Shown here in pieces: positions 116 through 22,900 of a DNA stretch of 26,633 bases. Source of the stretch: a virus; IMG/VR virus record IMGVR_UViG_3300035698_021793, positions 1-26,633 of that record. One strand, 5' to 3'. The notes beneath the pieces were generated by a model, which saw only the letters and a list, made by a program, of their open reading frames with translations, was not told where the DNA came from and did not search any database. The translations under genes and the position numbers were made by a program. How positions within the stretch are numbered: the first letter of the stretch is position 1; every line of letters starts with the position of its first letter.

Positions 116-1891
116 TTATACAATTATGTCAACATCATTGGCATAGTTGGTAAATCCATTTTCTTTTACCACTTTTAGCACGGAATTCACCCTGCTTACC
201 AATTCGTCCTTGTGTGAGATTAGAAAAATATTCTTCTGTTGTGTTCTACTCATGTCTTTCAACACAGCCATTGAACTTTCAACACCTGATATATCCATAC
301 CGGCATCGATTAATTCATCAATGAACAACAAGTTGATCTGTTGATAAAGACTTTCCCAAACATCTCTAAACGCCCAACTCAGGCTCAGGATTAGTCTGTT
401 TCTTTCACCCCTACTCAGATTATCAAAGTCCAGTTCTCTGCCCAGTTCTTCTATCTGCACAGATAGGTCACTTTGGAACACCACTGTGTGCGGCAGTTTA
501 ACCTTGCCTAGGAAGTATGCCAGACGCTGATTCAGATACGATAAATTTTGTTCTATGATCCTTGTTCTTATGAATGAATCTTTTGCAGTCAACAGCTTGT
601 ATAGGAACTCTTGGTGCCTGTGTAGATCTTCCATTTCGTTTGCTTTTTCGAAGTCGACTTTCTGTATCGCTTTGCTCTGCATTTCCTCTATCTGTTCTGC
701 ATACACATCATCTTTTTTCTCAGTTTGCTCTAGCTGACGTTTTAGATCCTGCAATGAACCTTTGTGATTGTATGCTTCGTCCATTGTGTCATAATATGTG
801 TCTGGTATGTTGCCCAGGTCACCTATTGCGTCCACGTCCTGTTGTATCTTTGTAAGGTCATTTGTAAGTTTCTCTGCGTATTCTTTTGATTCTGTTAATG
901 TTGTTTTAAGTTTTCCAACCAGGTGTTCGTGCTTGTCGTCATGCAGTTCCTGTTCACAAGTGGGACATTTGGCCGCTTCTGCAAATTCTAAATCTTTCTT
1001 TGTCTTTCCTACCGTGCTTTCTGCTTTGGCCAGCGAATCCTCATGATATGCTTTTTCTTTCTCTAGACTTCTCAATGCGGTCTGCAGTTCGTTGTGTTTG
1101 GACAGTCTCTTGTGTGCATCCAATTCTTTAGTGATGTCCACTTTGTCCAGTTCTGCTATTGCTTCTTTAAAACTTTTTATGTCTTCGTCTTTTTGACTTG
1201 CCCAGGCGGTGGACCTTATTTTTAAACTCTCGATTGACTCCTGTATCTTTTCATTTGACGCAACCCTGGCATCTATTTTTAATTTCTCTTCTGTTAACAA
1301 CTGTTTGGTTGCTTTCTGTTTCTCCTTCAAAAGATCTGCTTTTTGAGACAACAAAGTTATACCTAGCAACTGTTCGATGATCTCTCTTTGCTCTGCTTGT
1401 TTGGTTGATAAGAACGGTTGTGTGTATGTGTTTAATGCTATTATGTTTTTAAACATAGCATGGGTCATGCCCATTAACTTGTTGATCTCTGATTGTGTTT
1501 CACGATTCTCGCCCTGTGCTTCGTTGGATTCTAAGTTCTGTTCAATATCGTTTGCATAGAATTTGAATATCTGAGGTTTTCTTCCTCTTTCGATTGTGTA
1601 GGTGACCCCGTTCTTTATGAATTTGACACTTACAACCATGCCACGCTCGTTGGTCTTGTTAACGAGGTTATCTCTTCTGATGTTAGTCAGTGCTTCACCA
1701 AAGAACACATAAGATAGTGCATTGATGATTGTGGTCTTACCTGTACCATTTCTAGCACCTGCATCATCACCACCTAGGTCCATATTCTCACCAATAACCA
1801 ACACCAGGCTTTTGTTAGAGAAGTCAATAGCCTGGACCTGATTGCCCACGCTCATGAAGTTCTTGACTGTGATTTCTTTAATCGTTAGCAT
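116..1891 (-). CDS. 46: gp46-like recombination endonuclease subunit (Rad50/SbcC family ATPase)
   Basis: This is the large ATPase subunit that in T4 pairs with gp47 to process DNA ends for recombination-dependent replication. At 591 residues it is close to the family size (T4 gp46 is about 560). Visible parts in order: a Walker A loop at residues 45-54 (GARNGTGKTT, Lys52), long charged coiled-coil arms on both sides of a zinc-hook CPTC at 309-312, an ABC signature LSRGE at 492-496, a Walker B LLFIDE ending at Asp525-Glu526, and a switch histidine in LISHKDEL. The Walker A is preceded by an extra Gly/Asp-rich stretch (ENMDLGGDDA) compared with T4. The ribosome binding site is weak (GGAAA). The start overlaps the end of the 53-codon ORF by 14 bases, and gp47 lies just upstream, as expected for a heteromeric complex. 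Family assignment is very secure. Confidence 0.96.
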   Translation of the reverse strand: MLTIKEITVKNFMSVGNQVQAIDFSNKSLVLVIGENMDLGGDDAGARNGTGKTTIINALSYVFFGEALTNIRRDNLVNKTNERGMVVSVKFIKNGVTYTIERGRKPQIFKFYANDIEQNLESNEAQGENRETQSEINKLMGMTHAMFKNIIALNTYTQPFLSTKQAEQREIIEQLLGITLLSQKADLLKEKQKATKQLLTEEKLKIDARVASNEKIQESIESLKIRSTAWASQKDEDIKSFKEAIAELDKVDITKELDAHKRLSKHNELQTALRSLEKEKAYHEDSLAKAESTVGKTKKDLEFAEAAKCPTCEQELHDDKHEHLVGKLKTTLTESKEYAEKLTNDLTKIQQDVDAIGDLGNIPDTYYDTMDEAYNHKGSLQDLKRQLEQTEKKDDVYAEQIEEMQSKAIQKVDFEKANEMEDLHRHQEFLYKLLTAKDSFIRTRIIEQNLSYLNQRLAYFLGKVKLPHTVVFQSDLSVQIEELGRELDFDNLSRGERNRLILSLSWAFRDVWESLYQQINLLFIDELIDAGMDISGVESSMAVLKDMSRTQQKNIFLISHKDELVSRVNSVLKVVKENGFTNYANDVDIIV

Positions 1892-2039
1892 TTATTTTTT
1901 CCATTAGTTTACGCCATCTTTTATAACCAGTTATCCATACACTATGCGGTGTATCTTTGACCAATACAGGTGAATTCCAGATCTTTGTATGACCTTTCTT
2001 TAGAATATTCCAAAATTTCTTCTTACTAACTCGTGACAT
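1878..2039 (-). CDS. Small overlapping ORF between gp47 and gp46 (53 aa, unknown function)
   Basis: This 53-codon frame begins with ATG at 2039 inside the last codons of gp47 (14-base overlap) and ends with TAA at 1880 inside the first codons of gp46 (14-base overlap). It fills the space between them exactly. The product begins MSRVSKKKFWNILKKG and is rich in Lys, Arg and Trp (calculated basic), with no membrane segment or signal peptide. The symmetrical overlaps suggest a real, translationally coupled gene. T4 itself has small unnamed genes between 47 and 46. Against it: no clear ribosome binding site precedes the start, so it would depend on coupling. I do not recognise the family. Confidence 0.6.
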   Translation of the reverse strand: MSRVSKKKFWNILKKGHTKIWNSPVLVKDTPHSVWITGYKRWRKLMEKINAND

Positions 2040-3048
2040 CTAGATCGTTGTAAATTGCTGTTAATATGTTCTTGTCGTAGGTCTCGGAGTCAACACCCTG
2101 TAACTGTTTGATAACAATTTGATCCACACTGTCAAACTTCTGTACCTTTACGGTTGGCTGTTGTGCGTTGTCTACTTGTTCTGGTATCAGTTGTAGTTCT
2201 CTTAATTGATATTTGTCAATGAAGGTTTCTCTGACAAAGTTTGCTTCTTCGTAGCTTATCTTTATGTCCAGCGTGACTCTCACATACATCTTTGGTTTTA
2301 AGTATTTCTCTGGTTCTGCCAACAACTCACTTATTTTTATCGTGATATATCTTGGCATATCTGGCCAATTTATATACTTGGGCTCACCACCCCACTCTAA
2401 TATCATCATTCCTCTGTCGTCGTCCCAGGCATCTGCGTAGTTGTGGGGAAACGCATTACCCATGTATGTGATGTTCTTCATGTTCTGTCTCTTGTGGAAG
2501 TGTCCTGAGAACACCTTACCGCATCCTGCGAAATGATCCGCTTGTATGGTACCAACGTCTGGCATCTCCACCATGGCATTCATTTTGAAGTACGGAAGTT
2601 CAAAGTGTCCAAACACGTACTTCTGTTTCATCTTTTCAATTTTTTTGTATTCGTCTTCTACGATCCACGGGATAATTGCCACGTCATCTTCTACCAGCCA
2701 TTGGTTGACGATGTGTATGTTTGGAATGTTCCTGATGTATTCCATGGAATTGATCTCTCTTTTCTCCCTGTAATACAGATCGTGGTTGCCCATGATGACA
2801 TAGACCTTCTCGAATGCCGCACCCAGTCGTTCCATGTTGGACACTGTGTAGTTCATTGTGCTAACATTGGTCGCTGATCTGTGATGGTGCCAGTCGCCTA
2901 GGAATATACAGGTCTCACAGCCTTCGGCCTTGGCCTGTTCTATGAACCATCTTACAAAATCTTCACAGTCGTCATTGTGTATCCTGGAGTTGCCCTTCAA
3001 CCCAAAGTGTATGTCCGTGAAACATGCGACTTTCTTAAAAAATGCCAT
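2026..3048 (-). CDS. 47: gp47-like recombination endonuclease subunit (Mre11/SbcD family nuclease)
   Basis: This is the calcineurin-type metallophosphoesterase partner of gp46. The 340-residue length matches T4 gp47. All the metal-binding motifs of the family are present in order: DIH (Asp12, His14), GDWH (Asp52, His54), GNHD (Asn88-His89-Asp90), a GHFE histidine at 148, and GHFH (His183, His185). The C-terminal 130 residues would form the capping and partner-binding region. It starts three bases after the end of the gp55-like gene, with only a weak purine stretch before it, so it is probably co-transcribed and coupled. With gp46 it should form the end-processing complex used for recombination-primed replication in the cytoplasm. 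Confidence 0.96.
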   Translation of the reverse strand: MAFFKKVACFTDIHFGLKGNSRIHNDDCEDFVRWFIEQAKAEGCETCIFLGDWHHHRSATNVSTMNYTVSNMERLGAAFEKVYVIMGNHDLYYREKREINSMEYIRNIPNIHIVNQWLVEDDVAIIPWIVEDEYKKIEKMKQKYVFGHFELPYFKMNAMVEMPDVGTIQADHFAGCGKVFSGHFHKRQNMKNITYMGNAFPHNYADAWDDDRGMMILEWGGEPKYINWPDMPRYITIKISELLAEPEKYLKPKMYVRVTLDIKISYEEANFVRETFIDKYQLRELQLIPEQVDNAQQPTVKVQKFDSVDQIVIKQLQGVDSETYDKNILTAIYNDLDVTS

Positions 3049-3051
3049 GTG

Positions 3052-4038
3052 TTACCATTTCTTCTTCACGGTTGGTTTATGATTGGTCATGTCTATCTTG
3101 TTCTTGAACTTGATGTCTCCAAAGTCGTCCTTGAGATTAAGTTTGCCCTTCTTCTTTAATTTCTTGTTCAGTTTTGCTAGACCGGTCTTGTTGACCTCGT
3201 GTACATCTCCGTGTGCTGTTTCCATCATCTTCTTATATGAGGGTGCGTTAGTGGAATTCTCATTCTGCCTTGTGAAACTGGGCATCATGCTGTTGTACTC
3301 CAACAGGTCGTCCCTGATGGCTTGATTTTTCTTTTCAATGTTCAATATTCTAGTAAATGAGTTTGTGATGGCCGCGGTGTAGTATGCGAACGGATTGTCT
3401 GACTTCGATTCATCAAACTGCAATCCTATCTGACTCAGTTGCATCAGTGCCTGTGATTGCATCTCGTCATTGTAGGTGTAGCCCCTCCAGTTTGATCTGG
3501 TCCCGTATCTCTCACACAGCTTCATGTACATCATTGCAAGAGTGTTGGTCATCTTGCCATGGTCACATGAGAAGTGTCCGTTGTCCATGCCGCCTATCCA
3601 GTGTGATTTTCCTACGCACTGTGGTTTATTTTTTTCGTCAAGCCTGTAGTGTTGGAATGGTGGGAAGTTTACTTTTGCATGGTGATCTGATGTCTGCTTG
3701 GGATTCTTCTTCCTCTCGCTGTCCAGTGGCACATGATCAAACATCATAACCCTGAACACAAGATCCGTTTTCTCTATCTTCCTGGGTGATACTGTGTAGT
3801 CCACTAATTTAATCTTCTTCAGTCCCGACTCCTTAGCCGCCTCCCAGGCCTCTTGGGTCAGTCTTTTGGCCTTGGCCTTTCTGGCCATCGCTACTGCATT
3901 GGCATTGATCTTCTTTAGATTGGGCACTATCAGGTCAAAATGTGCGTCTTCGACAGCAACATATGAACAGTAGGTGTTCTTGCTGGCATGTATCTGTGCT
4001 AGTAGATCACGGTTGTTTAGGTACTTTACTCTCTTCAT
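3052..4038 (-). CDS. 55: gp55-like sigma factor for late transcription, with a large internal insertion
   Basis: Residues 5-16 (KYLNNRDLLAQI) resemble the T4 gp55 N-terminus. Residues 175-250 resemble its sigma region 2 core (RGYTYNDEMQSQ, then FDESKSDNPFAYYTAAITNS, then an Arg/Lys-rich segment), the part that binds the beta' clamp helices and melts the -10 TATAAATA box. At 328 residues it is much longer than T4 gp55 (185). Most of the extra length lies between these parts (residues about 27-165), and there is a Lys-rich C-terminal tail (260-328). The insertion holds Cys141, His146, His155, Cys158 and His160, which could bind metal. The T4 C-terminal clamp-binding motif (SLDFL-type) is not seen; the protein ends in VKKKW. 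The start has a good GGAGA site at 4042-4046. It is first in the leftward operon and faces a late promoter across the spacer. Confidence 0.85.
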   Translation of the reverse strand: MKRVKYLNNRDLLAQIHASKNTYCSYVAVEDAHFDLIVPNLKKINANAVAMARKAKAKRLTQEAWEAAKESGLKKIKLVDYTVSPRKIEKTDLVFRVMMFDHVPLDSERKKNPKQTSDHHAKVNFPPFQHYRLDEKNKPQCVGKSHWIGGMDNGHFSCDHGKMTNTLAMMYMKLCERYGTRSNWRGYTYNDEMQSQALMQLSQIGLQFDESKSDNPFAYYTAAITNSFTRILNIEKKNQAIRDDLLEYNSMMPSFTRQNENSTNAPSYKKMMETAHGDVHEVNKTGLAKLNKKLKKKGKLNLKDDFGDIKFKNKIDMTNHKPTVKKKW

Positions 4039-4041
4039 GAT

Positions 4042-4046
4042 TCTCC
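4042..4046 (-). promoter_or_regulatory. Ribosome binding site of the gp55-like gene
   Basis: The minus strand reads GGAGAATC directly before the ATG at 4038, a near-consensus Shine-Dalgarno at close spacing. It fixes the start at the conserved MKRVKYLNN end rather than at an internal Met. Confidence 0.7.
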
Positions 4047-4072
4047 AATTATGTTAATGTAAAATGACCACA

Positions 4073-4084
4073 AACAGGTCTGTT
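4073..4084. repeat. Short perfect dyad AACAG-GT-CTGTT
   Basis: Two 5-base arms are separated by two bases, followed by a partial repeat (GATCTGT). It lies about 35 bases upstream of the leftward ATG and about 45 bases before the rightward late box. It is too short and loop-poor for a terminator; an operator-type site is possible but unproven. Confidence 0.3.
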
Positions 4085-4127
4085 GATCTGTGTCGTATGG
4101 GTAATTAAGTGTGCCTAAAATAATGCC

Positions 4128-4135
4128 TATAAATA
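4128..4135 (+). promoter_or_regulatory. T4-type late promoter (TATAAATA) for the baseplate operon
   Basis: This is an exact match to the T4 late promoter -10 box, TATAAATA, on the plus strand 45 bases before the first structural ATG. T4 late promoters have no -35 box and are read by gp55 as sigma. The transcript should start around 4141, giving a leader of about 40 bases that contains the AAGGGAAAG ribosome binding site. The presence of a gp55-like gene next door supports this reading. Confidence 0.8.
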
Positions 4136-4180
4136 TAGTTTAAGTATACATAATTTTACAAGGGAAAGCAACCGTTAAAA

Positions 4181-5011
4181 ATGGCAATAGATACATTTGG
4201 AAAAATAGTCAAGAATGTGGGCACGGGCATATTCAACAGGACGTTGGGTAGACTGTTCGGTTCCGGTATTTCAGGCAACAGCAATCAAATAAAGAGGGCA
4301 ACTGCCCGTTGGAGCGGCAGGGCTGACAACGAAGACTGGCGTGTGAAACTGACAGTGCCAGATGGTCCGTTGACCGGTTTCTTTGATTTTGACTCTAACC
4401 CACTGATGCAACCCTTAGCAGGTATGAACGGCATATTCTGGCCCTTGACACCATCCATGGTGATACAGCACTCGGCCAACTACAATGCCATGGACATGAC
4501 ACACAGCAACTTCCCACACCAGGCGTACCAGAATTCACAGGTGGACTCACTGAACATTATTGGAGAATATCCTGTACAGAACCAGGATGATGCCAAGCAC
4601 TGGGTAGCAACGGTCAACTTCCTGAGGACGGCGACCAAGATGTTCTTTGGCCAGGACGATGGTACAGGATTGAAAGGAAATCCACCACCGATACTGCACC
4701 TGTCAGGCTACGGAGATCACATGTTCCAGAAAGTACCTGTGGTGCTGAACTCTTTCAACGTTGAGCTTAGGGCAGGCATAGACTACATCTCTACTAGACA
4801 GAATGAATCAGGTTACAAAACTGCCAGAACGAGGGAACGTATGGGATTACCGGAATTAGAAAAAAACCAAACATGGGCGCCAACACTGTCAAACATATCA
4901 GTGCTGGTGACACCAATCTACTCTAGAGAAAGTATTAAAAACTTCTCCATGAAGAAGTTCGTGCGTGGCGAGTTGAACGGACAGGGTGACAACGAGGTAG
5001 GGTTCATCTAA
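4181..5011 (+). CDS. Baseplate tail-tube cap/initiator protein, gp48/gp54-like
   Basis: This 276-residue protein heads the baseplate operon and immediately precedes gp53. It has no signal peptide or membrane segment. The central part (about 85-215) has the alternating strands of tail-tube-like folds: a stretch around residues 90-130 (VIQHSANYNAMD, LNIIGEYPVQNQDDA), a helix with ATVNFLRTATKMFFG, then PPILHLSGYGDHMFQKVPVVL and a strand ending in DYIST. A YPVQN-type strand, an FLRTATKMFFG-type helix and a PPILHLSGYG-type strand are what I associate with the gp48/gp54 class that joins baseplate to tube. It is shorter than T4 gp48 (364) and gp54 (320), and which of the two it equals cannot be decided here. 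Its end overlaps the gp53 start as TAATG. Confidence 0.7.
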   Translation: MAIDTFGKIVKNVGTGIFNRTLGRLFGSGISGNSNQIKRATARWSGRADNEDWRVKLTVPDGPLTGFFDFDSNPLMQPLAGMNGIFWPLTPSMVIQHSANYNAMDMTHSNFPHQAYQNSQVDSLNIIGEYPVQNQDDAKHWVATVNFLRTATKMFFGQDDGTGLKGNPPPILHLSGYGDHMFQKVPVVLNSFNVELRAGIDYISTRQNESGYKTARTRERMGLPELEKNQTWAPTLSNISVLVTPIYSRESIKNFSMKKFVRGELNGQGDNEVGFI

Positions 5012-5310
5012 TGGCTGACTATTCAAACACATCACCATACGCAGACACAGGAGAGACAAGAAACTACCTTGACATACTTAATCCTAGGACGCTGACCGCG
5101 GAACAGGACGACCAGAGCTACACGATTGAAAGAACTTATGCAGACAGACCAGACCTACTGGCCTATGATCTATATGGTTCACCGAGACTGTGGTGGGTTT
5201 TCGCACAGCGTAATCCAGATGCAATAGAGGATCCAATATACGATTTCAAACCAGGCGTGACAATACAGTTGCCCAAGAAGGAAAATCTTCTCAAAGACCT
5301 GGGGATATAA
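5011..5310 (+). CDS. 53: gp53-like baseplate wedge protein
   Basis: This is a short 99-residue protein with the gp53 family signature in its second half: RPDLLAYDLYGSPRLWWVFA, followed by RNPDAIEDPIYDFKPGV and a strand with IQLP. This LysM-like unit (an aromatic YGxxxLWW core, then a PG turn) is diagnostic. The T4 protein is longer (196 residues), so this is the minimal form. In T4, gp53 joins wedge to hub during baseplate assembly. A Shine-Dalgarno-like GAGGTAGGG lies inside the upstream gene's end. The ATG overlaps the previous stop by one base, and only three bases separate its stop from the next start. Confidence 0.9.
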   Translation: MADYSNTSPYADTGETRNYLDILNPRTLTAEQDDQSYTIERTYADRPDLLAYDLYGSPRLWWVFAQRNPDAIEDPIYDFKPGVTIQLPKKENLLKDLGI

Positions 5311-5313
5311 TCC

Positions 5314-7590
5314 ATGGCACCAAATTTAAAAGCAACGGCTATAGAATCGTTCAGCATACACGATAAGAAGACGGTTGACTCAAAAACATTCGTACACACG
5401 GTTAACGATCCCAATCAACTGAACCAGTTTGCATCTTACACACCTCTGTTCACACTGTCGGCACTGAGCCAGGCAGACCTGGAAAATACCAAGACACTGT
5501 TGAACAGCAAACCACACGACATCATAATCAAGAGCGGAGGTATAGCGGACGGCAACCTTTCGAGCCACAACGAGTCATCGCAAAATGCCCGGGAGAGAGG
5601 TAGAGATCCCAACAACGACTTCAACAAAACATTAGAGCAAAATACTAGGATGGCCGCAACGTTGGGCAAAAGTTCAAGGACTTTTAAGAGGGATAGAGAT
5701 TTGTACTTCACGGATGTGACAATGAATGCCATACCGGGACTCAACGAGAAGAGGAGATTGACATCGGTGACACAGATAAAGATGACCATAGTGGAGCCAG
5801 CTGGCATCAGCCTGTTCGAGAGAATGAGGGCGGCCGCGGCCAACAACGACTATCTTGATCATCTAGATGCACCGTACCTGTTGACGGTGGAGTTCACGGG
5901 TTTCGACGAGCACGGAAAGTTAGCGCCGGCCGAAGAGAGAAAGCACATGAAGAGACTGATACCTGTAAAAATGACCGACGTGCAAGTGGAAGTGAACAAC
6001 GCAGGATCGGTATACACAGCAACGGCCATACCCTATAACGAATTCGCATACGTGGACAGATTTAACTGGCCCAGGACATCAGGAACACTATACTCTAGAG
6101 ACCAGAAATTGAACACGGTGGTCAAGACACTAGAACAAATACTGAACGACCAGAATAAAGAAGAAATGGTGTCAGCGGGTGTCAGCGTACCAGACCAGTA
6201 CGAGATCTACATAGACGAGTCCTTCAATCCTAAAGGAGTCACAATTGGAAAAGATTTTTTCAATCAGAATGCGATGGCATCACAGGCAGTGGACACCGGA
6301 GATGCAGTCATAGATTTCATGAGGATCAGTTCCTCAACAGCGATAACAAAGATACTGGAAGAAATGATGAAAGCGGACGAGAGATTCTCGGACATCACTT
6401 TTACTGAATGGAAAAGCAAAGTGGCAACGACACTGGCATCGGTACAGCAGTCAGGTGGAGAAAAAGCCGTGTTTGACACCAGCGGTGGATATGACAAGAG
6501 CAAAAGCAATCCCGACATGTATTTCAAATACTTCAGGATCAGGTCCACAGTGATTCCGATGAAAGGAGCGTTTGATCACAAGAGACAGACCAACGCCAAG
6601 AAGATCAAGTTTGTGGTGGAACCATATATGATACATGCCTACTCTCTGGCCATACCCGGCGTCAGCACAGGACAGAATTTTAAAAATTTCGTGTACAAGA
6701 CCTACAACTACATATTCACAGGGGAGAACACTGATGTTCTTGATCTCAACATAAACTACAGGGTGGCATACTTCCAGAGCAGACTCAAGGATGTGGACGG
6801 CGATAGCGGAAGAAAGAACAAATCAGCGAAAACAGAAAATGAAAAGAATAAAGGCATAACAAACCCTGTTGACGTTGAGGATCAAAGTTTCTTGTTGAAA
6901 AACAATCCCAGTCTCGTAAAATCTTCTGGGACTAATAAGACGGGAGGAGGCTTCACATTCATTGATCAGTTCCTAGACGAGTTGACACACCCATTGGCGG
7001 ACATGGTTAACATCAGGATGGAGATTCTGGGTGATCCGGCGTGGTTGGGACAGTCACAGTTCATCCCGGCAAATCCCGAACAAACAGAGGAAGGAACAAG
7101 CAGGGACAAGGACATAGCATTTTGGAGAGGAAACAAAGAGGCAATATGGGATTCAAAAAGAAAATGTTACAATGCAGACCTGGCAGAACCTATCATACTT
7201 TTGAATTTCAAGATGCCAACTGACGTAGACGACAAGCGTGGTGTATATGAGATGCAATCAGAACAACAAGCACAGTTCAGTGGACTGTACAGGGTCATTC
7301 AGGTGGAACACAACTTCAACAACGGCAGATACACTAATGTCTTGCAACTTACCAGATTCAACAACCAGGGTGTGTACATATCATCTCCGATGGACGAGTA
7401 TGTAGTCGTAAACAACAACTCGGGTGGAGGTACTGTGTTCAACAAAACAGAATACAATGCGTTCCTAGAAACTGAGGGCGGTAACCTATCTGAAGTAATT
7501 AACATAGGAAAGAAGGTTAACGACCTTGTTGGTAAAGTTACAAAAACCATAAAAAGCAGGGTCAAAAGTATAGCAAGGGGTTTTTACTAA
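5314..7590 (+). CDS. Candidate baseplate hub protein (gp27-position), 758 aa
   Basis: This large soluble protein lies directly before the gp5-like spike gene, the position expected for the gp27-type hub that forms the socket for gp5. Visible parts: an N-terminal region with SYTPLFTLSALSQ (about 41-53), then DLYFTDVTMNA and a TIVEPAGISLFERM segment followed by APYLLTVEFTGFDEHGK (about 130-205), typical of hub beta domains. Late in the protein come VNIRMEILGDPAWLG (about 560-575) and FSGLYRVIQVEHNFNNGRYT (about 650-670), which match the usual end of LysM-like hub domains (a G-Y-V-x-H strand before a T-x-L-x-R strand). It is about twice the size of T4 gp27 (391). GGGGA at 5301-5305 gives the ribosome binding site. 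Hub role is inferred from position and these motifs; direct homology to gp27 is not shown. Confidence 0.6.
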   Translation: MAPNLKATAIESFSIHDKKTVDSKTFVHTVNDPNQLNQFASYTPLFTLSALSQADLENTKTLLNSKPHDIIIKSGGIADGNLSSHNESSQNARERGRDPNNDFNKTLEQNTRMAATLGKSSRTFKRDRDLYFTDVTMNAIPGLNEKRRLTSVTQIKMTIVEPAGISLFERMRAAAANNDYLDHLDAPYLLTVEFTGFDEHGKLAPAEERKHMKRLIPVKMTDVQVEVNNAGSVYTATAIPYNEFAYVDRFNWPRTSGTLYSRDQKLNTVVKTLEQILNDQNKEEMVSAGVSVPDQYEIYIDESFNPKGVTIGKDFFNQNAMASQAVDTGDAVIDFMRISSSTAITKILEEMMKADERFSDITFTEWKSKVATTLASVQQSGGEKAVFDTSGGYDKSKSNPDMYFKYFRIRSTVIPMKGAFDHKRQTNAKKIKFVVEPYMIHAYSLAIPGVSTGQNFKNFVYKTYNYIFTGENTDVLDLNINYRVAYFQSRLKDVDGDSGRKNKSAKTENEKNKGITNPVDVEDQSFLLKNNPSLVKSSGTNKTGGGFTFIDQFLDELTHPLADMVNIRMEILGDPAWLGQSQFIPANPEQTEEGTSRDKDIAFWRGNKEAIWDSKRKCYNADLAEPIILLNFKMPTDVDDKRGVYEMQSEQQAQFSGLYRVIQVEHNFNNGRYTNVLQLTRFNNQGVYISSPMDEYVVVNNNSGGGTVFNKTEYNAFLETEGGNLSEVINIGKKVNDLVGKVTKTIKSRVKSIARGFY

Positions 7591-13400: not shown

Positions 13401-13979
13401 TCAACATCAGATCAAATGAGAATATCGTATTCGGGTACACTTGACCAATTGAAATCGTTGTCAGACCAGATCATCTACCACCCAGTGAAATACAGGATAC
13501 TGTTTGGCACGAATGCAGATGAACAATTACAAGCAACGTTCAAGGTTGTTAAGAACACAAAAACAAATGTCACAGACGCAGTGATAAAGACAAGGGTCAT
13601 TGCCGCGATAAATGAATTCTTTGCACTAGACAACTGGGATTTTGGTGACGCATTTTACTACACAGAACTAGCCGCTTACATACACAACCAACTTGCTCCA
13701 GATCTACTGACAGCAGTGATTGTGCCAAACCAATCAGGACAGGCATTTGGGTCTCTGTTCCAGATCAATTCAGCGGCAGACGAGATTTTTATCAGTGGGG
13801 CCACCGTTGATGATGTTTCAATCATAACTGCACTAGGAGCCAACCAATTGGCGGTTTCCGGTACAGTGGTTACATCTACACCAACTGCCACAACAAATAC
13901 GACAACAGGATCAGCAGTGTCAGGCTCTACTACAACAGGTTCGGGATCAAGTACCGGCAGTAGTGGGTCAGGATACTAA
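10497..13979 (+). CDS. 6: gp6-like baseplate wedge protein, enlarged (1160 aa)
   Basis: In T4, gp6 forms the inner ring of wedges around the hub. The family signature is near the N-terminus (about residues 55-110): YPDDFNDFVESSEYVALIDL, then a SFRVDLNARENFLETAERR helix and RLINYNASRNKPATG. Around residues 970-1110 are conserved strands (VDVYMLERTYDN, HPVKYRILFGTNADEQLQA) and a helix with INEFFALDNWDFGDAFYYTE, the typical gp6 end. The protein is much longer than T4 gp6 (about 660). The extra middle part is beta-rich and includes an Asp-rich loop DDDDDGVVDNPE near residue 815 that resembles a calcium loop. The last about 40 residues are a Thr/Ser/Gly tail. No ribosome binding site precedes the ATG. 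Its stop overlaps the next start as TAATG. Confidence 0.9.
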   Translation: MATTDRQNRLLVAEDWRKIYQSFQQADFKSYDFETLRRTMVAYLRENYPDDFNDFVESSEYVALIDLIAYVAQALSFRVDLNARENFLETAERRNSVLRLARLINYNASRNKPATGLLKIDSISTTQDVADTTGTNLANSTIVWNDSANSNYREQFTAILNAANQTGQLFGSPRESGAIGGIATEVYTLSSNQADLPIFSFNKSIGGTNRPFEIVPSSINNSESIYESSPVPGTGLTYTYRSDGSGDSSNNTGFFFLFKQGIIQQTEFSVDTAITNYVKSLNVSNVNDTDVWLYKLDQFGQLSEQWTMVPSLSGNNAIYNSLSKAERNTYNVVTKSDDSIDLVFGDGNFSNLPLGTFRTYHRVSDNAKFAIQPADMQGITLTVTYVDANGAQQILTLTVSLKASVYNSAATESNASIKEKAAQVYYSQNRMITAEDYQVVPLSASQEIVKVRSVNRSASGISRAKEVLDPTGAYSNVNVFAEDGIVYREESTQQFTFTFNNRNDIQSTIDTSVEAKLKQAYARQFYYLKYATKDLSSLSATWNSTTTGTNTNTGYFTSGGALVVGDFATSNLKYAKTGALIKFTSPDTREFLNDTLVTAGTDNAEDRAWAKVGAVVLDGANSGVGNLEDGTGPITLNDILPNGAVLNAVIPAFTTSFSATLEADIVNRIEAYEEFGLRYDQDSETWKVITSTNLSTSTVFDTAGAGSTAGTNVDASWWFKFTNDGNTYTVVYRKLEYIFESEGQNKFHYDAQEKIYDYKTGKSVKDTVKILKTNSIVSTGNSIGYPITWQVVDTVTEADGFQDNRKVKVGFYDDDDDGVVDNPEIFDIHVEPDTSISTKFVFFEKYISYDTIERYRFYAATNFIVAENEADINVNTTTYTDGQLFYFYDGAEDVIKKYSSTTNTLSTTTDYIARRGRSSVSFQYRHNAGQETRIDPSVSNIVDVYMLERTYDNLFRVWLQDGGTKPEASTSDQMRISYSGTLDQLKSLSDQIIYHPVKYRILFGTNADEQLQATFKVVKNTKTNVTDAVIKTRVIAAINEFFALDNWDFGDAFYYTELAAYIHNQLAPDLLTAVIVPNQSGQAFGSLFQINSAADEIFISGATVDDVSIITALGANQLAVSGTVVTSTPTATTNTTTGSAVSGSTTTGSGSSTGSSGSGY
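13864..13976 (+). repeat. Thr/Ser/Gly low-complexity C-terminal tail of gp6
   Basis: The last about 37 codons encode almost only Thr, Ser, Gly, Ala and Val (segments such as TATTNTTTGSAVSG and GSGSSTGSSGSGY). It looks like a flexible linker or adhesion tail rather than folded wedge sequence. It is immediately followed by the start of the giant protein, with no gap. Confidence 0.7.
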
Positions 13980-16900
13980 TGGCTGACAATACTACAAACA
14001 CATCATCCAACAACGAAGTAGTCAAGCAAGGCAACAATGAGTACAGGAGGACTGTACAACATCTACCGGCGTTCTACAGGACAGACAGCAACCAGAGATT
14101 CCTGTCAAGCACACTGGATCCTTTGGTACAGAAAGGTGAACTGGAGAGATTGGATGGCCACATCGGTAGGCAGGATGCCTATACCAGGGCAGTAACAGAC
14201 AGATATATTACAGCTACCAACAGAGACAGGATGGCATACCAGCTGGAACCTGCTGTGACATACACAGATAGAGACACAACATCAATAAATCCAGAGGACC
14301 AGGTCAAATTTACAGGAACGTATGACGACTACATTAACCAGCTCAATTATTTTGGCGGCAAGGTGGACAACCATGACAGGTTGAACAAGGAAACTGTTTA
14401 CAGTTGGAACCCGGCGATAGACTATGACAAGTTGGTCAACTACAGGGAATACTACTGGATACCGAACGGTCCAAATGCAATAGAGATAGACTCGGTGGGA
14501 CCGTCGGCAGTGGCAGAATACAATGTCAGCAAGTGGCCGGAAGATGGCAGTTCTACAAAAGCATGGAACTTCCCACACAAGGAGGACGAGAGAAATCCGA
14601 TAATAAAATTGTACAGGGGTAACACATACAAATTTAACGTAAACGCAAAAGGACATCCTTTCTACATAATGACCGAACCATACAAGAGTCAGGTTGCAGA
14701 AGATGGTTCAACATCAACACTTTACTCAACAGGTGTAACCAACAACGGAGCTGATTACGGTACAGTGACATTCACAGTTCCACTGACAGGTGGCACAGAC
14801 ACATTGTACTACCAGTGTGGTAACCATGATTCCATGTACGGAATACTACAGATCAGAAACATAAACACACTGGCGAAAATCAATCCCGAGGATGACATAA
14901 TAGGAGTCAAGGATTACAGCTTAAGAACATTGAATCTTTCTAACGGAATGAAAGTAAAATTTACAGCAGGACAACTTGCAACGAATTCACCATATCTTAA
15001 CAAGGAATACTATGTGGAGGGTGTTGGGGAATCTATAACACTGACCAATGTTGACGATCTTATAACACCGGCAAGTTATGCCACAGAAAGTACCATACTC
15101 TACGATTCGGTTGATTATGACTCGAGGCCTTATGCCCTGGCATACTACACACCCGACGCCAAGGATCATATAACAATAAAGAGGGATTCTCTTGATCAGA
15201 ACGCATGGTCCAGATACAACAGATGGTTCCACAAGTCTGTGATAGATGAAACGGCTAGGATAAATGGTTTCACAGCGAACCTGGACGAGGATGACAGGGC
15301 CAAGAGACCTATTATTGAATTTGATTCGGGACTTGCACTTTACAACCACGGTACCGTGGCCAAAACATCTGTAACACTTTATGACACAGTGACGACAGAT
15401 GCATTCAGTGATGTCGTGCTCCAGACAGGTTACATAGTGGATGGTATCACACTTGCAGAAGGTATGAGGGTGATATTCTCAGCAGACACGGATCCCACAG
15501 TAAACGGCAGGATATACAAAGTCAGCTTTGCGACAGCAGGCGACAGCACACAGGTGATCTCACTGACACAAGAGGCAGACGGAGTTCCAGCTGACAAGGA
15601 CAGTGTGTTTGTAGAATTTGGAACAAAGAATCAAGGCAAGACCTTCTATTACAACAATGCAACCACTGCCTGGATTGAATCACAGCAGAAGACAGGAGTA
15701 AACCAACAGCCATTGTTTGGTATGTGGGACGATAAACACACAAGTTTCGATGATACAACAACATATCCAAACTCGACATTTGCTGGAGCGAAGGTTTTTG
15801 AATTTGCAACGTCTGACACAGCAACCACTGACACGGTCCTGGGCATAAAGGTAAAATACAACACAATTAACAATGTTGGCGACATAGTTTTTGAATCGGA
15901 TCATACATCGGGAACATTCACTTACAAATCCGGATCTTCCACTGTAACAAAGAATCTAGCAGAAGGACATCTTCACTACACAACAAGTAGGGAAACTCAC
16001 AACTCAAGGAGCGCCTGGATAAAAAGGACAAACGAGAGTAAACAGAGGGTCATGAGGACTTTCATCGTGGACGATACAGAGAAGCAACTGTTTCCTATAG
16101 ATTTCTACAAAAATTCTGCAGACTTAACAGACCTAGAAGTTTCAGTTTCTGTGAACGGTTCTAGGAAAACACTCACAACGGATTACACACTTGTTGACGG
16201 TACAACAAACAGATACGTAAAATTTGTCAAGGCATTGGCAGTCAACGATCAGATACGTGTTGCTGGTTATAGCAGTGCCGACAAGATAGTTAACAAAGGG
16301 ATATACGAAGTACCAGAAAATTTAGCTACTAACAGCTTGAACAAACAGTTGGGAACATTCACCTTCGGACAGATACTGAACCATGTCAGGGATATATTTG
16401 ACAAGAACCAAGATGTAACAGGTGCTATACCGGGAGAAACAAATCTCAGAGACAAACCCAATGCGAGACTGAAAGGTGGTAGCATACACCAACACGAATC
16501 ACCATTAGTTCCGGCAGTGTTTGGTCTGATAGACCAGGACTCTAACACAATATCGGCAATAGACCATGCCAACCAGGAATACGAGAAATGGTACAATGCA
16601 TTCCTGACACATGCAACAGGTACGGCGTATGAAGGGGTTGCCGCAGACAGGGTTGACGAGATTGTGACAGCAATAACACCAGGCAGGAACAGCACTTTCC
16701 CATTCTATTACGAGGACATGCTAGGTTGGGGAGAAAATGTCAGCACAAGAACTTACACAGTACTTGGAGCGTCACAGACGGATTACGCACTTGATTCACA
16801 ACACAATATAACAACACCCAGCAACAGGGCAGTTTATGTTTATCTAAATGATGTGCAATTAATTTTAGGCACGGACTACACGTTCAGTACAACAGACGAC

Positions 16901-19900
16901 AGTGTGAACATATCAGCCACACTTGCGGAAGGCGACATAGTTAAGATTAAGGATTACACAGACACAACAGGCAGTTACATGCCACCGAGTCCGACTAAAC
17001 TCGGAATGTATCCAAAATACAAACCGGAATCATTCACAGATACAACCTACATAACTGACACAGCAGTGATCAGGAAACACGATGGATCGATCATAAAAGC
17101 ATACGGAGATGAGAGAGATGATTTAATAATTGAATTAGAGAAAAGGATTTATAACAATCTTAAGACAGCACATGATCCGGCCTTACTCGACATACACGAT
17201 GTAATGCCCAGTGCATTCACATCAACAGAATACACACTGCAAGAAATTAATGATGTTGCGGCAACTGACTTCTACACATGGTCAGGCAGGAACAGTGTGC
17301 AGTACATCAACAACACAAGTTTTGTTGAAGGTTCTCCATTCACATACAACTATGCGAGAAGCACGGATAGACTGAACATTCAATCTCTTCCGGGACACTG
17401 GAGAGGCATATACAACTACTTCTACGACACAGACGCTCCGCATGTGAGACCATGGGAGATGTTGGGACATTCAGAGAAGCCAACGGACTGGGAAACAATA
17501 TACGGCCCAGCTCCGTACACATCGGCTAATGACGTACTTTGGGATGCCATTGCAACGGAACCAGGCAGGTATGGCAAGCCAGAAATTAAAACTTATCTAC
17601 CGGTCGATGCATCAGGTAATCTTCTAGATCCACTTGCCGCAGGACTTGTGGACAACTTTGACATACCGGGCAGGCAGGCCTCTTGGAAGTTCGGAGATCA
17701 TGGACCAGCAGAAACATCGTGGAGGAGATCTAGTGCATATCCTTTCAGTGTAATAAAGACACTGGCATTGACTAAACCGGCTAAATTCTTTTCAAACCTG
17801 TTTGACCCTTCTAGACTAAAAACTAACACAGCAGGAAATCAGATTGACACAGACACAGGTATCAGGAAAACACTTGCCACATCCAGGTACCACCTGGAAA
17901 CAGTGACTGACAATAATACTGGGGTGACAACAAGGTACCAGACAGCAGGATACCAGCCATTTGTGGTCAACTATTTGATATCACGTGACTTAGATGTTAC
18001 AGCATTCTACTACGACAAGATGAAAAATCTTTCCACACAGTTGGCATACAAACTGGGAGGATTTACAGACAAGGACAACTTAAAAGTATTGACTGATTCT
18101 GTATCACCGGGATCAACGTCAGGTTCAAAATTTATTCCGGACGAGAACTATAAGATATTGTTTAGGACATCTAATCCTGTTAAAAGTTTCCAGTACTCGG
18201 GCGTGTTGATAGAGAAGAACAATGATGCGACCAGTGACGGTTCTACGCTTTTAGGCGGATACAAGATACTAGGATACTCGACTACAAAACCATATTTCAA
18301 ATTTAACTACCCTGTCAAGACGACAACACACTCAGCAGTCTCGGTAGAGGGAACAACACCGGTCAAACGATACACTTCTTTCCAGGAAAATACACAGACC
18401 ATCCCTTATGGTTACGTGTTCAACACAATTCAGGATGTAACTGATTTCCTTTTTGGCTATGGCCACTGGTTGGAAAGCCAAGGATTCAAATTTAACAGGT
18501 ATTCGAATGAACTGAAAGAAACACTGAACTGGGCAAACGCAGTCAGGGAGTTCCTGTTCTGGACCACGCAGGAATGGGCACCAGGATCTGCAGTGACAGT
18601 ATCACCAGCGGCAGATGGGTTTGAACTTGATACTGACAACAGCATAGTTGGCAAATTAAGGAACCTGGCAGGCGATTACTCATTGCTGGACGCAGGAGGA
18701 AGGAAAATAGATATAGGAGAGATATCAACAAAACGTATTGGCAAGACGTTTGACTTATCGATCAAGTCAGACAGCATAGGTCTTTACAACGTGGCGCTGA
18801 ACACAGTACAGAAAGAGCACATATTGTTGTTCGATAACAGCACAGTATTCGCAGACATCATATATGATCCGTTCACAGGATTTAGACAGCAACGATTAAA
18901 ACTTGTAGGATGGAAGACGGCAGGGTGGAATGGTGACTACTACGCTCCAGGTTTTGTATTTGATTCCGCACAGGTTTCATACTGGAAAGCAAACACAGAC
19001 TACAGGATAGGCGATACAGTAGAGTACCAAGGAAAGTTTTATGTTGCAACAGCGAATCATAATTCGACAGCAACGTTTGAAACGGTAAACTGGAAATATA
19101 AAATAGAAAAACCGGCACCGCAATTGATTCCAAACTTTGATTACAAAATATCACAGTTCAATGATTTCTATAATCTAGAGTCAAACAACTTTGATGATTC
19201 ACAACAGCAACTGGCACAGAGACTTATAGGATACCAGTCTAGGGATTACTTGGAAAATCTTTTTGTCAATGATGTATCACAGTACAAGTTCTACCAAGGA
19301 TATATCAGGGAGAAGGGCACACAGAATGCAATAGACAAGATTCTAAAGGCACAGTACGAGGGAGAGGATATCAATTTGGAATTGTATCCGGAATGGATGA
19401 TCAGGACAGGCAGATTTGGAAATATAGATTCAGTGGAGAACATACAGATAACACTGAAAGACAACGAGGTATATTCAAATCCACAGAGTGTGGAACTGTT
19501 TAACACAACTAACGAGACCAAGGAGTTCACGAGATCTCTTTCAGTTAGCAAAGATCAGATGTACTACAAGCCGGTTGAGTACACAGCTTCTACAACTTTC
19601 AGCAGGATAGACTACACCAAAGAAGGTGTAGATAGGGAACATGCACAGGTCTACAAGACAGCAGGATATCCACAACTTACACAGGTACAACACACTGCAT
19701 TTAATATAACGGATATCAGTAATCTGGATATGAATGCTATAACAACGAATGATCTTGTGTGGGTGGCAAATAAATCCAACAACGACTGGGACGTGTTTAG
19801 GATAACCAGCGCCAGACTCAAGATAGCTCAAGTACAGTTAATTAATGATTCCACACAGTTGGAACTGACCTTCACCAGTTCACATGGATTGACAGGAAGC

Positions 19901-22900
19901 TCACCAACAAAACTGGCCGACTACTTTGGAATATCAAACAGTCAAGAACTGACGCTGAACGGTGTGTACCAAGTTTCAAGTGTGACAGATCACAAGACTG
20001 TGATAATAGATTACACTGGAAATACAGCATTCATACCAACACTGGAAGATGGATCAACGGCAGACAGCTACGGAAATATTTACAAATTCATATCAGTGAG
20101 ATTGGCATCCATGGACAATGTGAATGACCTGATCAACTATGCTGACTACAAAGATAAGGATGAGGCCATAGAAAAAGAAGGCGACAAGGTGTTCTCTGAC
20201 ACAGACAGCTCAGGACTGTGGCAGGTGTACGAGAAACAGGATCCGTACGTACCAAGTATAATACTGTCTCCAGACGTATCAACAGCAGACCAAGAATTTG
20301 GTCACAACATAGTGGCGAGGAATGATGGTAGGACAGTGGTAATATCAGCACCGGGCAAGACACAAGGTGAGGTACACTTCCTGTTCAGATCTAATACAGC
20401 GGCAGGAACGCTGTTTCAGACACAGTTGACTGCAACAATGACTGAAAATGATGATGCCACTAGCAGATTGGGTGAGTCACTGTCTATGAGTACAGATGAA
20501 AACTTTGTTGTGGCAGGTGCACCATTCACCAACACAATAAGTTCAGATGGCAGTACTAGATACGCAGACAGCGGGCTGATCAAGATCTACCTATGGGAGC
20601 CAACAACATTCAAGTATGGATTACTGAACACCCTAACACCGCCAGAGGATGGTTCGACTACAGATTCGGCACAGGCACAGAACTTCGGATGGTCTCACAA
20701 GATTTCGGAACCAGGATTGAGTTCTGGAAGAAGCACAGCAACGAAATATCTTTTCGTTGGAGCACCGGGACATGGTGATGACGTGGGACAGGTTTACATG
20801 TATGAGTGGGGCATCGGTGCAGATGGATCAACATACGACACATGGACGCAGAATTTAACGATCACATCAGCTGATCCAGGAGCAGGGAAAAGATTTGGAC
20901 ACAGGTTAGAAGCCAATGACAACGGTGACATATTAGCAGTCAGCTCACTAGCACCGGGACAGGCAGGTAAAGTGGAGATATACATAAGAAGTTCACAAGC
21001 AAATGACGGTAGCACAGATCATTCGTTCACTCTTGCACAGACACTGGAAGGTATCAGTGCAGACGGGTCGTCACTGAACACAGCGTTTGGTGATTCGATG
21101 ACAATGACCAACGACGGAACTGTCTTGATAGTAGGTGCACCTGGGGTTGATGACGGTAGCACAGGACAGATAGATGGTGGAGCAGTTTACTACTACAAAT
21201 GGAATGCAGACGGTTCTACAAACACATACACATTACAACAAACAATAGCGGCACCGGATTCGCAGTCAAACATGAAGTTTGGAACAAGTGTTGACATAAA
21301 CAACACAGGCACGAGAGTAGTGATAGGTGCAGAAAAGGCCGCGACACCTAGGGAAATGAAAATTGACTCGGGCGAGACCACTTTTGACCTACAGGACACA
21401 ACAATTGGTGATTTCAATACAGGCTCAGGAGCGGCATACACGGCCACTATGTACAACACAAAATTCATGATAGATGACAGGATGGTAACCGATAACACAT
21501 CAGAAGACGATGACTTTGGGAAAGGTTTATGTATTATCGATAACACCGTGTTTGTAGGTGCCCCGGACGATGAAGGGAATACTGCTATATCAAATGACGG
21601 AACGGTGGCCTGCTATGACCTATCAGTCAGCGGAGAGTACGCCTGGAAGAACATAGCTTCAGAGACAGCATTGATAGACATAGACAAACTTGGACAGGTG
21701 TTTGAATTCAACAACAAAACCAAACAGGTACTAGATCACTATGACCTTTATGATCCAATACAGGGAAGGATACTGGGAGTCGCAGACAGGGAAATAAACA
21801 TCAAGACAAATTGGGATCCGGCGGTGTACAACACAGGAACAAATGCCAACACCAAGACTCCGTGGGCAGAGAGTCACTTGGGTGAGGTATGGTGGGATCT
21901 TTCAAAAGTTAAATGGACATGGTACCAGCAAGGTGATCAGAAATTCAAAGCAAACAACTGGGGTAAAACTTTCCCAGGATCTAGCATAGACATATACGAG
22001 TGGACGGAATCCACGTTTCTACCAAGCGAATGGCAGTTGAGAACAGGAACGCAGGGAGGCACCAGCCAGGGAATAACCGGGACACCTTTGAATCCTGATG
22101 ACTCAAACTACACAGTAATACAGAAATATAATTCTAGATTAGACACTTTGGTGAATTACTATTACTACTGGGTGAAGAACAAAACAACAGTTCCATCTAA
22201 CAGTGTCGTTCAAAGAAAGAACTCGACGGGATCTGTAGCAACCCTGATAGCAAACCCTCAGGGATCAGGATTCAGCTACTATTCAGTGACGGACACCAAC
22301 AAACTGTTGCTGAACAATGTTGGCACACTATCAGGCAGTGACATAGTATTGAACATAGACATTAGGACCAACACGTTTGATGGTGATGCACACTCGGTAT
22401 GGAAGCTGGCCAAAGAGGGAGACAAGGATTGGAGACCAGGAACAGTGATAGAGACACGTTGGTGGGATTCACTGATAGGGCAGAACAGCACAGGTGATCT
22501 AGTGCCTGACATTACTCTTCCAGTGAACGAGAGATACGGAAACAGTGTGAGACCTAGACAGAGTTGGTATGTGGACAGGTATTCAGCACTGAAAGAAATC
22601 ATAGACTACACTAACATCGAGTTGAAAAAAATACAATTGGGTGGGACAATCAATCTTACAAATCTGAATTCTAAAGAGCCAGAGCCAACTGCCCAGAGCC
22701 TGGAATGGGACACGACCATAGACACATATGCGGAACTAACTTACATCGACACAAGAGATCTCTCCGGAACAGTGAGATACCTGGTCAGAGCAGACGAAAC
22801 ATCAAATGGTTACTGGGCGATATACACATGGGATGGCACAGAATTCACTAGGACAAAATTACAGACTTACGACACATCCGGTTACTGGAGTTACACAGAC

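Follow-up and report, generated by a model that had tools for sequence, protein, structure and literature searches.

A gp55-type late sigma factor from a jumbo-phage clade carries an inserted domain and lacks a T4-like clamp-binding end

The window analyzed here, meaning the whole stretch of DNA at its full length, is a virus record of 26,633 nt, a 26.6-kb fragment from a virus whose hosts are probably ocean bacteria. On its minus strand lies a gene for a gp55-type late-transcription sigma factor, with gp47- and gp46-like genes after it on the same strand and structural genes diverging from it. The features and the evidence for each are as follows.

116..1891, minus strand: gp46-like (SbcC) nuclease subunit (PHROG 77, E 6.3e-101)
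2026..3048, minus strand: gp47-like (SbcD) nuclease subunit, downstream of gp55 (PHROG 100, E 2.9e-68)
3052..4038, minus strand: gp55-type late-transcription sigma factor, 328 aa (PHROG 12791, PHROG 234 and T4 gp55 matches)
3052..3288, minus strand, residues 251-328 and stop: C-terminal extension found in the sub-clade to which the window belongs, with no T4-like clamp motif; its end is basic and conserved (alignment; pN/pS 0.187)
3289..3552, minus strand, residues 163-250: sigma region 2 homology, for core binding and recognition of the -10-like element (alignments; pN/pS 0.061)
3553..3978, minus strand, residues 21-162: inserted alpha/beta domain of the clade, containing C141, H146, H155, C158, and H160 (AlphaFold; conservation)
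3979..4038, minus strand, residues 1-20: conserved N-terminal helix (YLNN), in which N9 is the equivalent of T4 N13 (alignment; pN/pS 0.036)
4066..4080, plus strand: GACCACAAACAGGTC, an interrupted dyad of 15 nt within the 5' leader of gp55, with identical copies in relatives (upstream-region comparison)
4128..4135, plus strand: TATAAATA, a late promoter element of the T4 type, 45 nt away from the start of the structural gene at 4181 (single exact match; conserved in relatives)
4181..5011, plus strand: gene for a virion structural protein, divergent from gp55 and presumed to be its late target (PHROG 12050, E 2.6e-41)

Farther along, a single open frame (13979-26632) of at least 4,218 aa continues past the right end of the window and probably encodes a giant structural protein.

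Residues 1-270 of the 328-aa open reading frame (ORF) matched PHROG 12791, 'sigma factor for late transcription', with an E of 9.3e-80. The match to PHROG 234, the ordinary gp55 family, was confined to residues 160-288 (E 1.5e-23), and phmmer matched the ORF to the T4 gp55 chain 7d7c_F (E 2.5e-5). Pfam and NCBIfam gave no match for the protein, and Rfam gave none over positions 3000-5400 of the window. The order gp55-gp47-gp46 opposite structural genes also occurs in PA5oct, Munch, RaK2, Hallingskeid, 121Q, XaC1, GAP32, and Vibrio phage 2.275.O; in Atu_ph07 and Phosso additional genes interrupt it, and in SCTP-2 other genes lie downstream of gp55. These sequence comparisons indicate that the window protein is a late sigma factor of the gp55 family from a jumbo-phage clade. 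It shares with the PHROG 12791 jumbo-phage proteins the family match, the insert and, in those eight, the gene order, but it has a longer C-terminal extension and another set of Cys and His residues.

The N-terminal helix and the sigma-2 core of the window gp55 align with those of T4 gp55. Five of the seven T4 residues that contact the -10-like element are identical (N9, R181, F208, Y219, and T221, corresponding to T4 N13, R57, F86, Y97, and T99), while T4 H95 is replaced by F217 and T4 L54 by Y178. The available text of a T4 study reports that N13, R57, F86, Y97, and T99 matter for promoter contact (PMC7892883). Among the T4 acidic core-binding residues E70, D74, and E77, only E70 is kept, D74 being replaced by Q196 and E77 by M199.

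The window contains one exact match to TATAAATA, which is not significant by itself since one or more matches turned up in 52 of 100 shuffles. In the relatives, the 160 nt upstream of gp55 were compared as 166 distinct regions, of which 134 contain ATAAATA facing away from gp55, toward the presumed divergent gene, 89 of them as TATAAATA; the regions were assessed by sequence and are related rather than independent. By comparison, 10 of the 166 regions have ATAAATA pointing at gp55, and the element occurs in 245 of 21,394 background strands and in 8.4% of simple region shuffles, so its presence in relatives is more than chance. In two contigs, TATAAATA copies stood 10-120 nt upstream of a same-strand ORF of at least 100 aa in every case (G006, 4/4; G007, 2/2), against about 7% of positions, although these numbers are small. 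Atu_ph07 and Phosso have no ATAAATA element, and their divergent gene is annotated as a nucleotidyltransferase. T4-like late promoters appear to be retained across the clade, and because they are conserved and promoter-contact residues are kept, promoter recognition looks T4-like. The preliminary description had suggested that late promoter control may differ from that of T4; given the 134 of 166 regions with ATAAATA and the identity of N13, F86, Y97, and T99, the promoter element does not seem to have changed, but the link to the clamp probably has. The leader of gp55 contains a second conserved element. A GACC-N5-9-GGTC dyad occurs in 56 of 155 distinct upstream regions, in all 56 as the exact 15-mer GACCACAAACAGGTC, which is present somewhere in 61 of 80 close loci, once each in G006 and G007 and not in G004; it is possibly an operator or a translational control site.

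Between the conserved helix and sigma region 2, the window gp55 has about 142 residues, whereas T4 gp55 (185 aa) has about 18, a net gain of about 125. Alignment with T4 gp55 thus bears out the earlier observation that the gp55 core is split by about 140 extra residues, and the interval then given (3541-3950, residues 30-166) approximates the insert at 3553-3978 well. In an alignment with 16 phage proteins, the insert was found in the window protein and in those of 11 jumbo phages (PA5oct, Munch, RaK2, 121Q, GAP32, XaC1, Hallingskeid, Atu_ph07, Phosso, Vibrio phage 2.275.O, and SCTP-2); in T4, Vibrio phage ValKK3, Syn30, S-SSM4, and XacN1 the N-terminal helix leads almost directly into sigma region 2. 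Comparison with marine T4-like phages, as had been proposed, did not yield the close relatives: both cyanophage gp55s examined (Syn30 and S-SSM4) share the sigma-2 core and lack the insert, and the relatives are RaK2-, PA5oct-, and Atu_ph07-type jumbo phages. At E<=1, a query with the insert alone picked out 56 phage records from 50,697, with 24 of the 56 covering at least 80% of the query; judging from their names, all 56 (two of them short records) are RaK2-, PA5oct-, or Atu_ph07-like phages. The sigma-core query matched 1,695 phage records at E<=0.01. The insert alone also matched PHROG 12791 (E 1.8e-21), as did pieces of the PA5oct and Munch gp55s; for the remaining jumbo-phage gp55s of this type the insert was assigned from the alignment.

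Searches of viral contigs with two queries gave candidate stretches that nearly all code for gp55 relatives (290 of 291 and 48 of 50), as do 594 of 600 among the matches listed for a further query; a Vibrio-phage query found no relative in these contigs. The presence of the insert was verified in the environmental relatives that were aligned, and all 162 distinct proteins of that set contain it. This set was derived from 208 loci with an ORF, from which 17 truncated or odd ones were dropped and identical ones collapsed; together with 12 named rows, including the window, it makes up a clade set of 174 rows, which retains four intein-bearing rows. In a sigma-core tree, all 129 insert-bearing rows formed one clade (support 0.93) that included none of the five insert-free rows; the tree is a rough one, as the insert was cut using the alignment of insert-bearing rows only, the five rows served as outgroup, and CM1 was left out. 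The tree indicates inheritance of the insert within a single clade, which comprises jumbo phages and large phages related to T4. Estimated from 600 pairs sampled among 70 distinct coding sequences of close relatives, with synonymous sites near saturation, pN/pS was 0.036 in the N-terminal helix, 0.163 in the insert, 0.061 in sigma region 2, and 0.187 in the C-terminal tail, which argues that the insert is constrained by purifying selection, though less so than the core. Because the insert by itself matches PHROG 12791, folds confidently alone, and is under purifying selection, it is more than a product of chance. In the literature covered by a limited search, no earlier description of it was found.

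AlphaFold modelled the whole window gp55 (69 window and locus sequences) with a pLDDT of 86.1 and a pTM of 0.69. The insert alone (residues 21-163) was modelled with a pLDDT of 94.3 and a pTM of 0.86 as one long helix with short strands, and is confidently predicted to be a separately folding domain. By VIA-align, the whole-protein model matched T4 gp55 in its RNA polymerase complex (7d7c_F; Z 14.1, 121 residues, 2.9 A), and the further structural matches were many sigma factors. The two gp55s thus have in common the sigma-2 fold, the N-terminal helix, the five contact residues, and promoters of the TATAAATA type, and they differ in the extra residues between the helix and region 2.1, in the longer C-terminal tail without a clamp motif of the window protein, and in its changes at D74, E77, H95, and L54. 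E. coli sigma70 (4yln_F) matched with a Z of 9.7 over 93 residues, pairing residues 5-236 of the model with 109-447 of the chain; as the aligned length fits no other way, each must skip a large block. The available text of one sigma70 source places a non-conserved region between regions 1.2 and 2.1 (PMC4598750), and the insert apparently sits at this same place in the sigma fold, the position of the gap being deduced from these lengths. No likeness of fold was seen between the two, the non-conserved region being absent among the Foldseek and VIA matches listed for the insert, and homology is not claimed. Against the PDB the insert gave no match (best Foldseek E 0.29; best VIA Z 3.4), but as VIA re-ranks Foldseek's own list only, the insert may still have a known fold. 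A viral structure library gave one full-length match, to a 340-aa protein of Myoviridae sp. ctWb16 (E 1.7e-16, 22% identity).

The hydrophobic-acidic C-terminal sliding-clamp motif of T4-type tethered gp55 was not found in the window protein, nor was a clamp-binding motif found elsewhere in it. The missing clamp-binding end noted in the preliminary description proved to be clade-wide: a strict polymerase-type motif was present in none of 174 gp55 ends, and a broad motif in 3 of 174 tails (last 25 residues), compared with 11.5% expected from shuffles. Neither motif is fully sensitive: of 13 polymerase ends, those of Munch and SCTP-2 escaped the strict motif, and those of Munch and V2275O escaped the broad one. 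Inside the insert, the strict motif occurs in three of 174 proteins (L214-L216, two of them nearly identical), which carry the polymerase-like YNDLFEY or YDNLFTY; the window's own insert has no polymerase-like clamp motif, and a looser [DE]-phi-aromatic turn is found in only 30 of 174 rows. Of five insert-free gp55s subjected to the broad test, only those of T4 and ValKK3 passed, and those of Syn30, S-SSM4, and XacN1 failed, so loss of the tail motif is not limited to the insert clade. In T4, according to the available text of PMC7892883, the gp33 clamp motif is essential, whereas loss of the gp55 motif impairs activation but does not abolish it.

Most DNA polymerases of the clade have a clamp motif at their C-terminal end (e.g., TFNKLFEF, HFDSLFGW, and TLFDFS), and the strict motif was found in 11 of 13 polymerase ends, T4 included. 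Adjoining the polymerase gene, or one gene further, is a gene for a 239-255-aa protein that fell into PHROG 12062, 'unknown function', in all 10 cases tested; it was found near the polymerase gene in L284:9449-10183 (G006), PA5oct, Munch, Atu_ph07, Phosso, SCTP-2, and Vibrio phage 2.275.O. One member matched the gp45 family (E 6.7e-5). In hhalign, PHROG 12062 matched gp45s at 94% (E 8.8e-8) when these included the XacN1 and CM1 proteins, which are encoded beside polymerase genes and are themselves only weak gp45 matches; profile comparison with four ordinary gp45s gave 6% (E 0.006), and the candidate's profile found no clamp among PDB sequences. PHROG 12062 is likely, though not proven, to be the divergent gp45-like sliding clamp of the clade. 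All 17 insert-bearing records searched contain it, and none of five insert-free ones does; the query alignment had been built from 10 of those 17, leaving an independent count of 7 of 7, and shared descent explains this co-occurrence as well as function does. The standard PHROG gp45 model detected a clamp in one of 12 insert-bearing records and in none of 15 contigs. After the candidate clamp, a 482-503-aa protein (L284:10186-11634 in G006, with homologues in G004 and G007) ends in FSSLFE or FHSLFEEV; its G006 copy has no Pfam or PHROG match, and given the clamp-like motif at its end it may be a clamp client.

For gp33 (PHROG 254), matches were obtained in all four short-gp55 T4-like controls, cyanophages Syn30 and S-SSM4 having both gp33 and an ordinary gp45, unlike the window clade as far as these searches reach. 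None rose beyond noise in the 17 insert-bearing records or in XacN1 and CM1, and the same model also matched 4 of 14 control genomes. Matches in Phosso (E 0.026) and Hallingskeid (E 0.06) were taken as chance, as second matches in ValKK3 and T4 had E values of 0.004 and 0.03. A four-sequence gp33 profile run at full sensitivity on the ORFs of PA5oct, Munch, G001, G004, G006, and G007 (three of these partial contigs; T4 as control) gave a best non-T4 E of 2.4. Screening for the C-terminal motif yielded no convincing gp33 candidate; this is a weak screen because each genome has many ORFs with the broad motif (8-42). One conserved protein ending in the motif, at PA5oct 77856, has a homologue with Cys pairs and may be a baseplate hub protein. 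Since in 11 of 12 insert-bearing records the clamp escaped the PHROG gp45 model, non-detection of gp33 is not evidence of its absence; sensitivity is low for small fast-evolving proteins, and a gp33 may be present but unrecognised in the clade. XacN1 and CM1 have neither the insert nor a detectable gp33, and Syn30, S-SSM4, and XacN1 have no tail motif, so the insert does not simply track the loss of gp33 or of the tail. For CBB, a RaK2-like jumbo phage, the available text of a published report describes gp55 and ATAAATA promoters, with gp33 and gp45 homologues undetected (PMC5259590).

We favour, with moderate confidence, the reading that the window protein is a late sigma factor whose insert provides an extra contact to RNA polymerase or a phage partner, and whose tail no longer holds the clamp. 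The sigma-2 domain would direct host RNA polymerase to TATAAATA, and the insert, at the position of the sigma70 non-conserved region, would make the extra contact with the polymerase core or a phage partner. This contact could stabilise the holoenzyme or aid promoter opening or escape, and any coupling to the clamp would run via another protein or via the insert, not via the gp55 tail. Contact between insert and polymerase is argued only from position, as no known fold was matched; against it stand the change of two of the three T4 acidic core-binding residues and the faster evolution of the insert relative to sigma region 2.

A possible but distinctly less probable explanation is that the insert replaces the function of gp33 and the clamp tail by binding the PHROG 12062 clamp or the beta flap directly, with coupling kept via a built-in module. 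The joint occurrence of the insert and PHROG 12062, the missing gp55 tail motif, the gp33 searches, the clamp motifs kept by the polymerases, and the polymerase-like motif inside the inserts of L214-L216 would all fit such a replacement; however, the co-occurrence is confounded by shared descent, the window insert has no such motif, few rows have even the looser turn, and the insert has no PDB fold match.

The late genes of T4 provide the classic example of transcription activated by a sliding clamp. The available part of a 2010 review asks how general the T4 mechanism is, notes possible variation in clamp attachment among relatives of T4, and raises the question of why a fused late sigma is not known (PMC2988020). 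It is a doubtful proposition that the clade moved replication coupling from a clamp tail and a separate gp33 into a sigma-built domain gripping its own divergent clamp or the beta flap; if true, this would be a naturally occurring counterpart of the fused late sigma, which the review noted as not found. The present analysis describes the clade-wide inserted domain, removes the zinc idea considered below, and identifies in the clade a candidate clamp, PHROG 12062, near the polymerase. With this candidate in hand, the question of coupling is sharper, and it can now be tested using three named proteins from PA5oct, RaK2, or 121Q.

It is quite improbable that contact with the clamp or another replication factor is made instead by the C-terminal extension (residues 251-328) through its basic end. 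The extension is conserved in the window's sub-clade, last residues included, with a pN/pS of 0.187, but it is largely missing from about half of the clade rows, and its basic end is unlike the hydrophobic-acidic ends of these phages' polymerases.

A zinc-binding module formed by C141, H146, H155, C158, and H160, as the preliminary description had proposed, is very unlikely. All five residues are present at those positions of the window gp55, and in 65 close rows (the distinct ones of 81, including the window and two with an open C-terminal end) C141 and H146 are kept in all 65 and H160 in 64, but H155 in 46 and C158 in only 26. Across the 174 clade rows, H146 is kept in 174, H102 in 173, H130 in 172, H160 in 143, C141 in 120, H155 in 64, and C158 in 27. 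Of the five proposed ligands, two therefore fail to be conserved in close relatives and four across the clade; the insert has no clade-invariant Cys, and His146 alone of the five is invariant, so a zinc cluster built from these residues is not shared by the clade. The (nearly) invariant H102, H130, and H146 are more likely structural or contact residues, although a three-His site with another ligand in the insert is conceivable.

That the insert is neutral or selfish, perhaps the remains of a mobile element which the protein tolerates between its two sigma segments, is highly improbable and already disfavoured by whole-clade inheritance, the confident fold, and a pN/pS of 0.16, even though four relatives have an intein-like insertion elsewhere in the gp55 gene, so insertions do land here.

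These four environmental relatives (L222, L223, L225, and L227, with gp55 ORFs of 634, 636, 640, and 645 aa) carry the intein-like insertion, assigned by sequence appearance, in sigma region 2 near the core-binding residues, where it starts at a Cys after NWRGY and ends in ...TGN before TYLDEM or TYVDEM. At L252 (PA5oct, 218-222 kb) two ORFs together encode the DNA polymerase, and the intein-like VTEDHSIMVIRNAELLEVKPTDL at the end of the first suggests an intein or homing insertion in the PA5oct DNA polymerase.
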